Source of the DNA: Desulfovibrionales bacterium
GTDB lineage: Bacteria > Desulfobacterota > Desulfovibrionia > Desulfovibrionales > Desulfonatronaceae
DNA: 64,000 bases
Reading direction: 5' to 3'
Assembly: GCA_007693505.1 (NCBI GenBank)
Contig: REDL01000045.1
Span: 124,001-188,000 of the forward strand
Shown here one piece after another: positions 44,712 through 51,605 of this stretch. How positions within the stretch are numbered: position 1 is the stretch's first letter; each line of letters starts with the position of its first letter. Both the position numbers and the translations under genes were made by a program. The notes under the pieces are model-generated. The model was not told the DNA's origin. It made no database searches and saw only the letters and a list, made by a program, of their open reading frames with translations.

Positions 44712-45146
44712 ATGAAGACACGCCCCGCAACAAAAAAACAAACCCTGGCCCCGCCACCCCGCGAGACACCCGGCGCCCTGAGCGAAACCACACGAAGCAC
44801 GGCCCTGGCCGTGGCCGGGTGGTTGGGAGAAAAAAAGGCTGGGGACATAACCGGCCTGGACGTCACCCCGTTTTCCTCCGTGGCCGACGTCATGGTCATT
44901 TGCACGGCACAAAGCGCCCGCCATGCTCAAGCCCTGGCCGACTGGCTCTTGGAGTGTTATGCGGAACAGGGAATCGTTTATTTGGGCATGGAGGGATATG
45001 CTGAGGGCCGCTGGATTCTCGTGGATGGCAACGACATCCTCGTGCACATCCTTCAGGAAGAGAGCCGGGAATTCTATAACCTGGACAGCCTCTGGGCCAA
45101 TGCAGATGTGCTGTTTTCCCAGTCGGAACAAGGCGATCCAAACTAA
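44712..45146 (+). CDS. rsfS: Ribosome silencing factor RsfS
   Basis: This 144-residue protein includes about 25 extra basic, Pro-rich N-terminal residues. The RsfS/Iojap domain shows ITGLDVTPFSSVADVMVICTA, YAEGRWILVDGNDILVHI and REFYNLDSLW. It binds ribosomal protein L14 and blocks subunit joining in starvation. It starts soon after the tatA terminator. Confidence 0.93.
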   Translation: MKTRPATKKQTLAPPPRETPGALSETTRSTALAVAGWLGEKKAGDITGLDVTPFSSVADVMVICTAQSARHAQALADWLLECYAEQGIVYLGMEGYAEGRWILVDGNDILVHILQEESREFYNLDSLWANADVLFSQSEQGDPN

Positions 45147-45635: not shown

Positions 45636-45740
45636 CATCGGTGCGCTTTTGAACTTTTTGTTGCGACGCGGCAGTTGGCAGTTTTCCAGCAGACTGGCAC
45701 GGCCGCCAGCGAGGCTTCATCCGAACGCCCCCCATATGCC

Positions 45741-48152
45741 ATGATTTACGATCACGTACTCTCCCTCATCGGGAACACGCCCCTGGTTCGTCTGAACAAG
45801 CTGAATCCCTTTTTTGGTGTCCAGATCGCGGCCAAGTTGGAGGAATGCAACCCCGGCGGCTCCATCAAGGATCGGGTCGCTCTGGCCATGATCGAACAGG
45901 CTGAAGCTTCCGGGGTATTGACTCCGGGCAAGGTGATCATCGAGGCCACATCCGGCAATACCGGCATTGGCCTGGCCATGGTCTGCGCGGTCAAGGGATA
46001 TAAGCTGATGCTGCTCATGCCGGAATCCGCCTCGGAAGAACGCAGGCGCATCATGCTTGCCTACGGGGCGACCATCCACCTGACACCGGGCCACCTGAGC
46101 ACGGATGGAGCCATCGAAGAAGCCTACCGCTTGAATCGTGAAGAACCGGATCGCTACGTCCTCATGGATCAGTTCAACAATCCGGCCAGCATTGTGGCGC
46201 ACTACCGAACCACGGCCCAGGAGATCTGGGACCAGACCGAGGGGCGAGTGACCCACGTCGTGGCCACCCTGGGCACGTCGGGGACCGTGATGGGCTTGAC
46301 GAAACGACTGAAGGAGCTCAATCCGGACATCTGCGTCGTGGCCGTTGAACCTTTTGCCGGACACAAGATTCAGGGCCTCAAGAATATGCAGGAATCCTAC
46401 CCGCCGGGGATCTATGACAAACACGCTCCGGATCGGATTCTGAACGTGGACGACGAGTCCGCCTTTGATTTGTGTCGCAAATTGGCCAGCCAGGAGGGTA
46501 TCTTTGCCGGGATGAGTTCCGGCGCAGCGCTCAGCGGAGCGCTCCAGTTGGCTTGTGAGCTGAACAACCGGGAGCACCGGCCGGCACCATCGGATCAGCA
46601 CCCTTTGGTGGTGACCATCTTCCCTGACGGCGGAATCCGCTACCTGAGCACCCCCCTCTTCGCCCCCCCCCAGGACCAGGGTGTCCGGGTTCGGGACCTT
46701 CGACAGCGCAAGCTGACGGCGATACGACCAGGCAAGACCGGAACGAGGCTTTTCACTCCCGGCCCAAGCCTGGATGACTGGGCTGATCTTGGAGCATGGC
46801 GCCGGATCGTACTCTTGGATGTGGTCGCCAGATTTCTGAACCAAAGGCACGCCGAGCAACACCATCACGCCGAGATCCTGGTGGGCGTGGCTGATTTGGA
46901 CGACCGAGCCGTTTTTGCCGCCCGCTCCGAATCCGCCAGCCTGGAAGCCTCCGGCCGGGAAATCCTGACCAGGATTCACGGGCTGGCCGGTCGTCTGGGC
47001 ATGGCCCCCCAGACCAACTTTCGCCCAGCAGGGCAATGCATCGCCTCATTGCTCCAGGCCTGCCGCAAACTCCTGAGCAAGGGACTCGGCTATGAAAAAC
47101 TGCGCTCCGTTTACTTCGATGTCCTTCGGGACAAAAAGTATGGAGACCTTCTTGGCGTTGACCCGGAAAAATTACGTACCGGACTGACCGTGGACCTGGA
47201 CGGCTACGCCAAGGATAACCCCAGAGACTTCACCCTGCTCAAACGGACCTCCCTGGCTGACCTCAAGGACGGACTCTTTCTCCAGACAGAGTGGGGCAAC
47301 GTTCGCCCCAGTTGGTATCTGCAAATGGCCGGAGTCGTTCTGGATGACCAGCTACCGGAACTGACCCTGGTCCTCGGAGACGACGATCATCGATTTCCGC
47401 ACCTGGAAAACCTCTCCTCCATCTGGCGCGGCGCGGGCATGGCCCAGCCTCAAGCCTGGATCACCGCCCAGTCCGCGGTCTGTTCCGAACCGGAACAGCG
47501 GTGCACCGTCACGTCACTGCTCGACAAGGGCATGCCGCCCCTGGCACTCCGATTCTGGCTCCTCTCCAGTTCCTATCACACGGCACTGTGCTGCTCCCCG
47601 GACAATCTGGGGATGTGGCTCAAGAACTGGCAACGCCTGCAACAAACCCTCGTCCGGCTGCACACTCTCGCTCCCGAGCATGTCCCCGAGGACGAAGCCG
47701 CCTCACGTCACGCCCGACCTCCCGAATCCGTCCCCAGCATTGGGGTGAACGTCGGCCAGTCCATCGGGCAAACCGTATTCAACGTCAAGCAAGCCCTGAC
47801 GGACTGCCTGGAAGACGATCTCAACCTTCCCCTGTTCTGGCCGGCAATGTTTCAGTGCACCCGGGAGATCAACACCGCGATCAACCAGGGCCGTCTCTCC
47901 GGATGCGAGGCCTCCACCTGCATCGACCTGTTTCGGCACATTGATGCCGTGCTGGGCGTTCTGGACTGGACCAGCATCCCCCTCCGCCCTGCGGACCTGC
48001 CGGACCACATCCGCGACCTCTGCACCCGACGCCAAACCGCCCGCCGCGAAAAGGACTTCGCCACAGCCGACGCCCTGCGCCGGGAAATCGAAGCCGCGGG
48101 CTTCCGCATCCAGGACACCCCGGACCGGACGCTGATCTTTCGCAATTCGTGA
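45741..48152 (+). CDS. Cysteine synthase fused to degenerate cysteinyl-tRNA synthetase-like domain
   Basis: This is an 803-residue two-part protein. Residues about 1-310 are a complete CysK/CysM-type O-acetylserine sulfhydrylase, with PLP Lys43 (GGSIKDR), TSGNTG and GTSGTVMG. Residues about 315-803 align end to end with cysteinyl-tRNA synthetase (DVVARFL, KLRTGLTVD...DFTLLK, FPHLEN, C-terminal REKDFATADALR), but HIGH is replaced by DLGA (349-352). Three of four zinc ligands are lost (Pro340, Met529 and Leu558; His554 kept) and KMSKS is absent. Aminoacylation is therefore very unlikely; a regulatory or tRNA-sensing role is an inference. ATG 45741 matches the usual CysM start; an in-frame TTG lies at 45675. 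Confidence 0.9.
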   Translation: MIYDHVLSLIGNTPLVRLNKLNPFFGVQIAAKLEECNPGGSIKDRVALAMIEQAEASGVLTPGKVIIEATSGNTGIGLAMVCAVKGYKLMLLMPESASEERRRIMLAYGATIHLTPGHLSTDGAIEEAYRLNREEPDRYVLMDQFNNPASIVAHYRTTAQEIWDQTEGRVTHVVATLGTSGTVMGLTKRLKELNPDICVVAVEPFAGHKIQGLKNMQESYPPGIYDKHAPDRILNVDDESAFDLCRKLASQEGIFAGMSSGAALSGALQLACELNNREHRPAPSDQHPLVVTIFPDGGIRYLSTPLFAPPQDQGVRVRDLRQRKLTAIRPGKTGTRLFTPGPSLDDWADLGAWRRIVLLDVVARFLNQRHAEQHHHAEILVGVADLDDRAVFAARSESASLEASGREILTRIHGLAGRLGMAPQTNFRPAGQCIASLLQACRKLLSKGLGYEKLRSVYFDVLRDKKYGDLLGVDPEKLRTGLTVDLDGYAKDNPRDFTLLKRTSLADLKDGLFLQTEWGNVRPSWYLQMAGVVLDDQLPELTLVLGDDDHRFPHLENLSSIWRGAGMAQPQAWITAQSAVCSEPEQRCTVTSLLDKGMPPLALRFWLLSSSYHTALCCSPDNLGMWLKNWQRLQQTLVRLHTLAPEHVPEDEAASRHARPPESVPSIGVNVGQSIGQTVFNVKQALTDCLEDDLNLPLFWPAMFQCTREINTAINQGRLSGCEASTCIDLFRHIDAVLGVLDWTSIPLRPADLPDHIRDLCTRRQTARREKDFATADALRREIEAAGFRIQDTPDRTLIFRNS

Positions 48153-50019: not shown

Positions 50020-50868
50020 TCAGCTGTCCCGCAGGAAGCCTTTGGCCTTGAGTTTCTGGAAGTAGGACGAACCGGGATAGCGGACCAGGTGCAAAAAACG
50101 GCTCGACATGGTGACCTGAACCAGATCTCCTTTGCAAAGCGGCCAGCCGGATTGTCCATCAAGGGTCAGGAAGGCCTCGGTTGTGTCCTCGTCAACCCGG
50201 ACCCCGATCAACTGGTCGGCCGGAAAGATGAACGGTTTGATCTCCGTGAGAAACGAGCAGATGGGGGTTGCGCAGATGACCTGCAACTCCGGATAGATCA
50301 ACGGCCCCCCGGCAGAGTAGGAATAGGCCGATGCGCCGGTGGGCGTGGAAAAAATCAACCCGTCGGCACGCAAGGCAGCGATCCTCTCAGTAGCAAAAAA
50401 CAGTTCCAGGTTGATCAATCGGGCCAAGTTGCTGCGCCCAACAACGATATCATTCACCGCAATGGCCGAGAGCATTTCCGCGTCGTCGCGGATCAATCGA
50501 ACATCCAGAAGCAGGCGCGTGGACACAACAGCACCCTGTTCAAGAATTTCCCTGAGCACCTCTTGCCAGACGTCTCGCGGGCACTCCGTTAAAAAGCCCA
50601 CCCTGGCAAAGTTGATCCCCAACACGGCCATATCGTTGGCGCAGATTTTTCTGGCCACGCTGATCATGGTTCCATCTCCGCCAAGAACCAGCGTCAGCGT
50701 TGGCGAGCGTCGCGGCAGGCAGGAGGAAATATCGTCCTCATTCTCCGTGACATGCACATCCAGGCCACGTTCAGCCAACCAACCGGCTATTTCCTCTGCC
50801 AGGCGAAGCGCTTCGCCATGCCCGCGCTTGACGACAATCAAAATGGACCGGGGAAGAATCCTGGTCAT
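50020..50868 (-). CDS. nadK: NAD kinase
   Basis: This 282-residue enzyme phosphorylates NAD to NADP. GGDGTM is the catalytic motif, with [17 protein letters not shown] and the [19 protein letters not shown]-binding region. ATG 50868 is supported by AGGGGGC seven bases upstream. It is coupled with the DUF89-like gene downstream and is divergent from pncC, another NAD-cycle gene. Confidence 0.95.
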
Positions 50869-51095
50869 TTCGCCCCCTTCGATACGGTTGCCCCAAAGGG
50901 CGATGCGTTTGGAACGCGAGAAAAAAACAGGTGCATGCGCTGGGTTCTCGCCGGCCTGAAAAACATGGGAAAGGCGCCGTGAAGAAAGATCAAAAATCCA
51001 TCTGGCCATTTGCCAGACAAGCCATTACCCTTTACGCATTCATGGATCAAGGAGCAGCAAAGCCGGGGCGATGCGACGCTGAGGAGGAGACGAGC

Positions 51096-51605
51096 ATGAA
51101 GACGACAAGCAGACCAGAACCCATGGATCGCATCAATGCTCTCGGCACCGCATTGTCCGCACACATGGCACTACTGGCTACCGCCGAATCATGTACCGGG
51201 GGCCTGATAGCCCACAAGGCCACCAATATCCCTGGCAGTTCCCGTTGGTTCGCCGGAAGCGTGGTCGCCTATTCCAACAGTATCAAACAGAATGTTCTGG
51301 GAGTGTCGGAGGCCACACTTTCGGCCCACGGAGCTGTCAGCAGGGAAACGGTCTTGGCGATGGTCCAGGGTGTCCGGGAACTGCTGGGTACCCAGGCCGC
51401 CCTGGCTGTTTCCGGTATTGCCGGCCCGGACGGGGGAACTCCGGAAAAACCGGTGGGTACCGTCTGGATGGCCTGGGCTTTGGACGAGACCCTGCACAGC
51501 GACCTGTACCGCTTTTCCGGGACCCGCTTGGAAATCAAGCAACAGGCCGCCGCAACGGCCATTGGAGGCATGCTGGCCATGCTGCATCACGCCGCAAACC
51601 GGTGA
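51096..51605 (+). CDS. pncC: Nicotinamide-nucleotide amidase (CinA C-terminal domain)
   Basis: This 169-residue stand-alone CinA C-terminal domain converts nicotinamide mononucleotide to nicotinate mononucleotide. Motifs are [22 protein letters not shown] (catalytic Ser/Thr region), [15 protein letters not shown] and [27 protein letters not shown] precedes the ATG. Its neighbour nadK points to NAD homeostasis at this locus. The stop overlaps the next start by one base (TGATG). Confidence 0.93.

Follow-up and report, generated by a model that had tools for sequence, protein, structure and literature searches.

A CysM-type cysteine synthase fused to a decayed, putatively tRNA-Cys-binding cysteinyl-tRNA synthetase in Desulfobacterota

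The fusion gene and its synthase half

Within the 64,000-nucleotide stretch of Desulfovibrionales DNA analysed here (the window), a single ORF, open throughout its 803 codons and preceded by an in-frame TTG at position 45675, joins a CysM-type cysteine synthase to a full-length domain resembling cysteinyl-tRNA synthetase (CysRS). This arrangement, proposed in a preliminary description made from the sequence of the window, is borne out by the ORF itself, by profile matches and by alignment (Table 1).

Table 1. Features of the fusion gene, in window coordinates
Feature	Position	Strand	Remarks
Whole fusion gene	45741..48152	+	803 aa plus stop, ATG start
CysM-type cysteine synthase half, residues 1-308	45741..46664	+	PLP site intact
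CysRS-like half, residues 334-800	46740..48140	+	profile matches, predicted fold
Dead HIGH motif D349-L350-G351-A352	46785..46796	+	alignment
KMSKS-replacing loop CSEPEQRC, residues 581-588	47481..47504	+	alignment
Family-specific motif YEKLRSVYFDVLRDKKYG, residues 451-468	47091..47144	+	
Family-specific motifs TVDL..Y.KDNPRDFTLLKR and TEWGNVRPSW, residues 481-525	47181..47315	+	
Anticodon-binding tail CysS_C, residues 752-796	47994..48128	+	R764, R768, F773, D777, R780, D792 retained

An origin by chance or by a local frame accident was ruled out: both halves lie in one frame at all complete homologous loci (177/177), and dN/dS values of 0.02-0.30 indicate purifying selection on the CysRS half, which is usually less constrained than the synthase half. 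Operon context was set aside as a functional clue, the neighbours being lineage-specific housekeeping genes with no functional link. They include an ORF resembling RsfS (ribosome silencing factor) two genes upstream (44712-45146), RsfS also lying close to the fusion on several contigs of Desulfohalobiaceae, and two ordinary housekeeping ORFs downstream, recognised by eye as NAD kinase-like (50020-51009, minus strand) and CinA C-terminal-like (50931-51605, plus strand). Rfam and tRNA scans gave no matches.

The synthase half scores 357 bits against TIGR01136 (CysK/CysM; cut-off 344) and also matches PF00291. It is nearer to CysM (TIGR01138, 347 bits) than to CysK (TIGR01139, 316 bits), and since the former score falls below its cut-off of 394 we describe this half as CysM-like rather than as a CysM equivalog. 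The Schiff-base residue Lys43 and the SGNTG and GT(S/T)GT motifs are intact, the active-site residues are invariant across the fused family, and in a full-length model this half resembles CysM structures (TM 0.92, normalised to target length). With all PLP-site residues present the synthase appears to be active, as originally supposed. Lys214 is invariant in 155/155 fused proteins; we take its position to correspond to Arg220 of Mycobacterium tuberculosis CysM, the residue that reads O-phosphoserine. A search for serC (TIGR01364), used as a probe of the O-phosphoserine route, left the source genome itself also without a match.

The source genome also has a canonical cysK and a cysE-like gene. 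At least 11 Desulfovibrionales genomes with the fusion (G002, G007, G018, G025, G028, G032, G041, G046, G049, G065 and G103; 7 of the 11 at least 90% complete) gave no match resembling the cysE of the order, and none to a cysteine synthase besides the fusion; some cells may therefore have no cysteine synthase but the fusion, and the fused synthase may be able to work without O-acetylserine. These genomes, and the joining of a PLP synthase to a fold of the tRNA-Cys-binding type, could also be accommodated by tRNA-dependent cysteine synthesis, in which the CysM half would act on the aminoacyl group of tRNA-Cys held by the CysRS half. We consider this route very improbable, however, given that a normal cysS is present, that the free-substrate CysM residues are all intact and that we know of no tRNA-Cys-mischarging enzyme here.

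Catalytic decay of the CysRS-like half

Residues were assigned by aligning the protein to the CysRS of E. coli and to that of the source genome itself, and motifs in 155 distinct fused proteins were compared with those in 42 real CysRS. The fused half contains PF01406, DALR_2 and CysS_C in CysRS order and is covered by TIGR00435 over its whole extent, at 112 bits against a cut-off of 340. In E. coli numbering, HIGH (37-40) reads D-L-G-A, KMSKS is deleted, and the zinc ligands Cys28, Cys209 and Glu238 are Pro, Met and Leu; every one of these assignments, made beforehand from the sequence, holds in the alignment. Of the zinc ligands only the fourth, His234, survives in the window protein; it is invariant in the family (155/155). 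That the attached synthetase is dead, also claimed at the outset, agrees with the absence of a complete HxGH and of a complete KMSK from all fused proteins (0/155 for each), where each occurs in 41/42 real CysRS. To this we add that full motif loss is not universal within the family: all four zinc ligands (CCHE) persist in 44/155 fused proteins, from other lineages, versus 41/42 real CysRS, and KMS is retained in 25/155.

Modelled alone by AlphaFold with 95 homologues, the CysRS half yields a complete CysRS fold (pLDDT 91.9, pTM 0.91), in keeping with the likeness to CysRS noticed earlier along the full length, anticodon-region tail included. The top Foldseek match is chain B of 1U0B, a CysRS-tRNA-Cys complex (E 4.7e-25), and VIA-align gave Z of 32-33 against the best CysRS structures, with rmsd values of 5.9 Å for 1U0B (423 residues aligned) and 2.7 Å for 8QHP (382 residues aligned). 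The full-length model has a pTM of 0.64 and low confidence at residues 450-493, and its placement of the two halves is not reliable.

Fixed in the fused family and absent from real CysRS are R43, K137, S141, T168, L171, T182, R186, L189, T196 and V201 (E. coli positions), which sit in the motifs YEKLR..YFDV.RD..YG, TVDL..Y.KD.P.DFTLLKR and WGNVRPSW. Because these residues are located in the catalytic body and not in the tail, the old active-site side has probably been rebuilt for something, the candidate partners being the tRNA CCA end, some other ligand and the synthase half. Under the second of these, the pocket formed by the YEKLR, DFTLLKR and GNVRPSW residues would bind or convert a different small molecule, and zinc-complete, KMS-like lineages may activate cysteine for a non-tRNA acceptor, like the cysteine:GlcN-Ins ligase MshC. 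Such a role would account for R43, K137, T168, R186 and the other family-fixed residues, and for the partial survival of CCHE and KMS; we nevertheless regard it as improbable, since no family member has a complete HxGH or KMSK, the zinc and ATP sites are missing from Desulfovibrionales copies, and the fusion keeps an anticodon tail that MshC-like enzymes lack. MshC, an enzyme with an active adenylation site, is likewise paralogous to CysRS and shares the catalytic fold, but the profile is matched by its chains at positions 8-358 only and the tail is missing, whereas the fused domain has the tail and lacks the ATP motifs.

Distribution and history

Surveying for the fusion together with a separate active cysS, as had been suggested beforehand, we found the former phylum-wide: it occurs in 83/120 Desulfovibrionales genomes (partial contigs counted) and, in a phylum-wide sampling of Desulfobacterota, in many families. 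Its matches score well above real CysRS, with open frames mostly of 760-880 aa. When one genome per species was scanned, 497 relatives emerged, of which the best 80 nearly all bear Desulfobacterota or old 'Deltaproteobacteria' names; plasmids gave one weak CysRS-like match only, in Paenibacillus. The one CysRS-like domain that lacks a synthase half is truncated at the end of its contig, and extra N-terminal domains suggested by open frames of 1383-1485 aa were taken, from their composition, for shadow frames of GC-rich DNA. One Desulfohalobiaceae MAG, probably our genome G033, holds two fusion copies (L062 and L066, on JAIPEP010000080 and JAIPEP010000175). The fusion is missing from some genera (f5/g10 and f4/g9), whose cysteine synthases are other ones. 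Loss of the CysRS half alone in Desulfovibrio-like genera was rejected: their standalone synthases share only about 40% identity with the fused half, no remnant lies near them, and they are therefore other enzymes.

As to the separate gene, the source genome carries a bona fide cysS (535 bits), and 378/395 Desulfobacterota genomes sampled have a TIGR00435 match above cut-off; the fused domain is therefore not the usual CysRS of those cells. Genomes of family f33 (for example G216, G338 and G450) have two TIGR00435 matches each (E <= 1e-70) and are not among the genomes listed as matching the fused-domain profile; this family possibly carries a second, different CysRS paralogue.

In a tree of 68 fused and 24 real CysRS sequences, with motif columns left out, the fused domains form one clade apart from real CysRS (support 100, from a quick method whose support is less safe on long branches), and the sampled Desulfovibrionales form one clade (100, by the same quick method) on a branch of length 1.42. 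The changes needed on this tree number four for the zinc site, five for the KMSKS-like motif, five for H37 with G39, and one for the anticodon set. Judged from these sequences, the fusion is a single ancient lineage across Desulfobacterota, and the parsimonious story would be that a CysRS copy became joined to a CysM-type synthase once, early in the phylum, after which the activation chemistry decayed repeatedly while the anticodon module was kept. Within one fusion lineage the CysRS halves range from almost intact to wholly decayed, a natural series that shows what a synthetase retains once charging ceases to be its task.

Anticodon-recognition residues and a proposed role

The tail set of R423, R427 (R/K), aromatic 432, D436, R439 and D451 is kept in 151/155 fused proteins versus 41/42 real CysRS, and the window protein has R423, R427, aromatic 432 and D436 as functional CysRS do. 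We take R439 and D451 to be anticodon contacts also. In 1U0B, anticodon nucleotide G34 hydrogen-bonds Arg427 and Asp436 and stacks on Trp432, and Arg423 is part of a hydration network (PMC12684709). Retention among Desulfovibrionales is 97% for the five charged anticodon positions, 25% for the zinc ligands, 3% for HIGH and 0.5% for KMSKS; the corresponding values in other lineages are 99.7%, 81%, 38% and 37%. Retention of the anticodon positions in Desulfovibrionales exceeds that of five random invariant positions of real CysRS (P 0.002 for all, 0.0015 for polar and 0.004 for charged positions), these P values being indicative only, as the anticodon set was fixed after the alignment had been seen.

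Because the anticodon residues were kept while catalysis was lost, a tRNA-binding role is favoured, and the best reading is that the domain has been selected as a tRNA-Cys-binding module and not as a charging enzyme. A structural relic, whose CysRS half would only stabilise or dimerise the synthase and whose tail residues would serve folding, is quite improbable: it would agree with the repeated decay of catalytic parts, with the lower constraint on the CysRS half than on the synthase half in most pairs and with the fact that the entire fusion can be lost, but not with the retention of the anticodon-contact positions, which far exceeds that of other invariant CysRS positions, nor with a full fold conserved phylum-wide.

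We therefore propose, with a probability of about one half, that an active CysM-type synthase and a catalytically inactive, CysRS-derived, tRNA-Cys-binding domain are combined in one protein so as to couple the synthase to tRNA-Cys. That the CysRS-like half binds tRNA-Cys we consider likely; the domain would then probably couple the activity or the location of the synthase to tRNA-Cys, that is, to its supply or charging state. In the simplest form, binding of (probably uncharged) tRNA-Cys would change synthase activity, and for such allosteric gating we would put the odds slightly below even. More tentative still is the broader proposal that a cognate uncharged tRNA directly gates a biosynthetic enzyme through a fused pseudo-synthetase, as an ancient post-translational counterpart of the T-box, widespread in Desulfobacterota. 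Several considerations weigh against the proposed coupling. Given the conserved catalytic-body residues, a different ligand or an interface between domains may be more important; the neighbouring genes offer no functional link, the modelled placement of the two halves is not reliable, and some genera do without the fusion. The tail residues, moreover, could be kept partly for folding.

The retained anticodon residues would also fit a tether or channel, in which binding of the domain to tRNA-Cys or to the real CysRS would serve only to place the synthase by the charging machinery, so that new cysteine is handed over while synthase activity stays unchanged. The covalent fusion kept in all 177 loci and the presence of a separate cysS accord with such a tether, yet it presupposes a complex, and by itself it leaves the rebuilt, conserved catalytic-body residues unexplained; we judge it unlikely. 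Among the ligands first suggested for a sensor that gates cysteine synthesis, tRNA-Cys is supported by the retained anticodon residues, while cysteine and an adenylate fare poorly: sensing of either is unlikely in Desulfovibrionales because the zinc/cysteine and ATP sites have been dismantled. If the domain senses tRNA-Cys, sulfate reducers would tie translation demand directly to cysteine synthesis through an enzyme rather than through transcription.

Degenerate synthetase domains that sense tRNA are represented by the HisRS-like domain of GCN2, a eukaryotic kinase with translation control as its output, whereas the fusion would affect at most one biosynthetic enzyme. The parallel drawn earlier with HisZ stands in spirit, as a works-like comparison: in a review of synthetase paralogues (PMC9437257), HisZ is a HisRS paralogue without adenylation activity attached to an enzyme in the synthesis of its cognate amino acid. 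It does not extend to mechanism, HisZ being a class II, separate subunit, partnered with HisG and mediating histidine feedback, whereas the fused domain is class I, CysRS-derived and covalently joined to a CysM-type synthase, with tRNA-recognition residues kept and the amino acid site lost. CysRS* of Desulfobacterales, a further CysRS homologue of this phylum, is described there as lacking an anticodon domain and charging SelC* (PMC9437257); the fused domain reverses this, keeping the anticodon domain and losing the chemistry. SepRS/SepCysS also links cysteine synthesis with tRNA-Cys (PMC5424206), by other enzymes and chemistry, whereas the fusion has a CysM-like synthase beside a normal cysS. 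The consulted portion of the review covers HisZ, MshC and CysRS* and leaves the fusion unmentioned (PMC9437257), and a full-text search of the open-licence literature returned no description of it. Retained tRNA recognition and covalent fusion would thus appear to be new features among synthetase paralogues in amino acid biosynthesis. Public annotation may hide the fusion: DVU0663 of D. vulgaris is, we presume, this fusion. That gene is annotated as plain cysK (PMC3431258).
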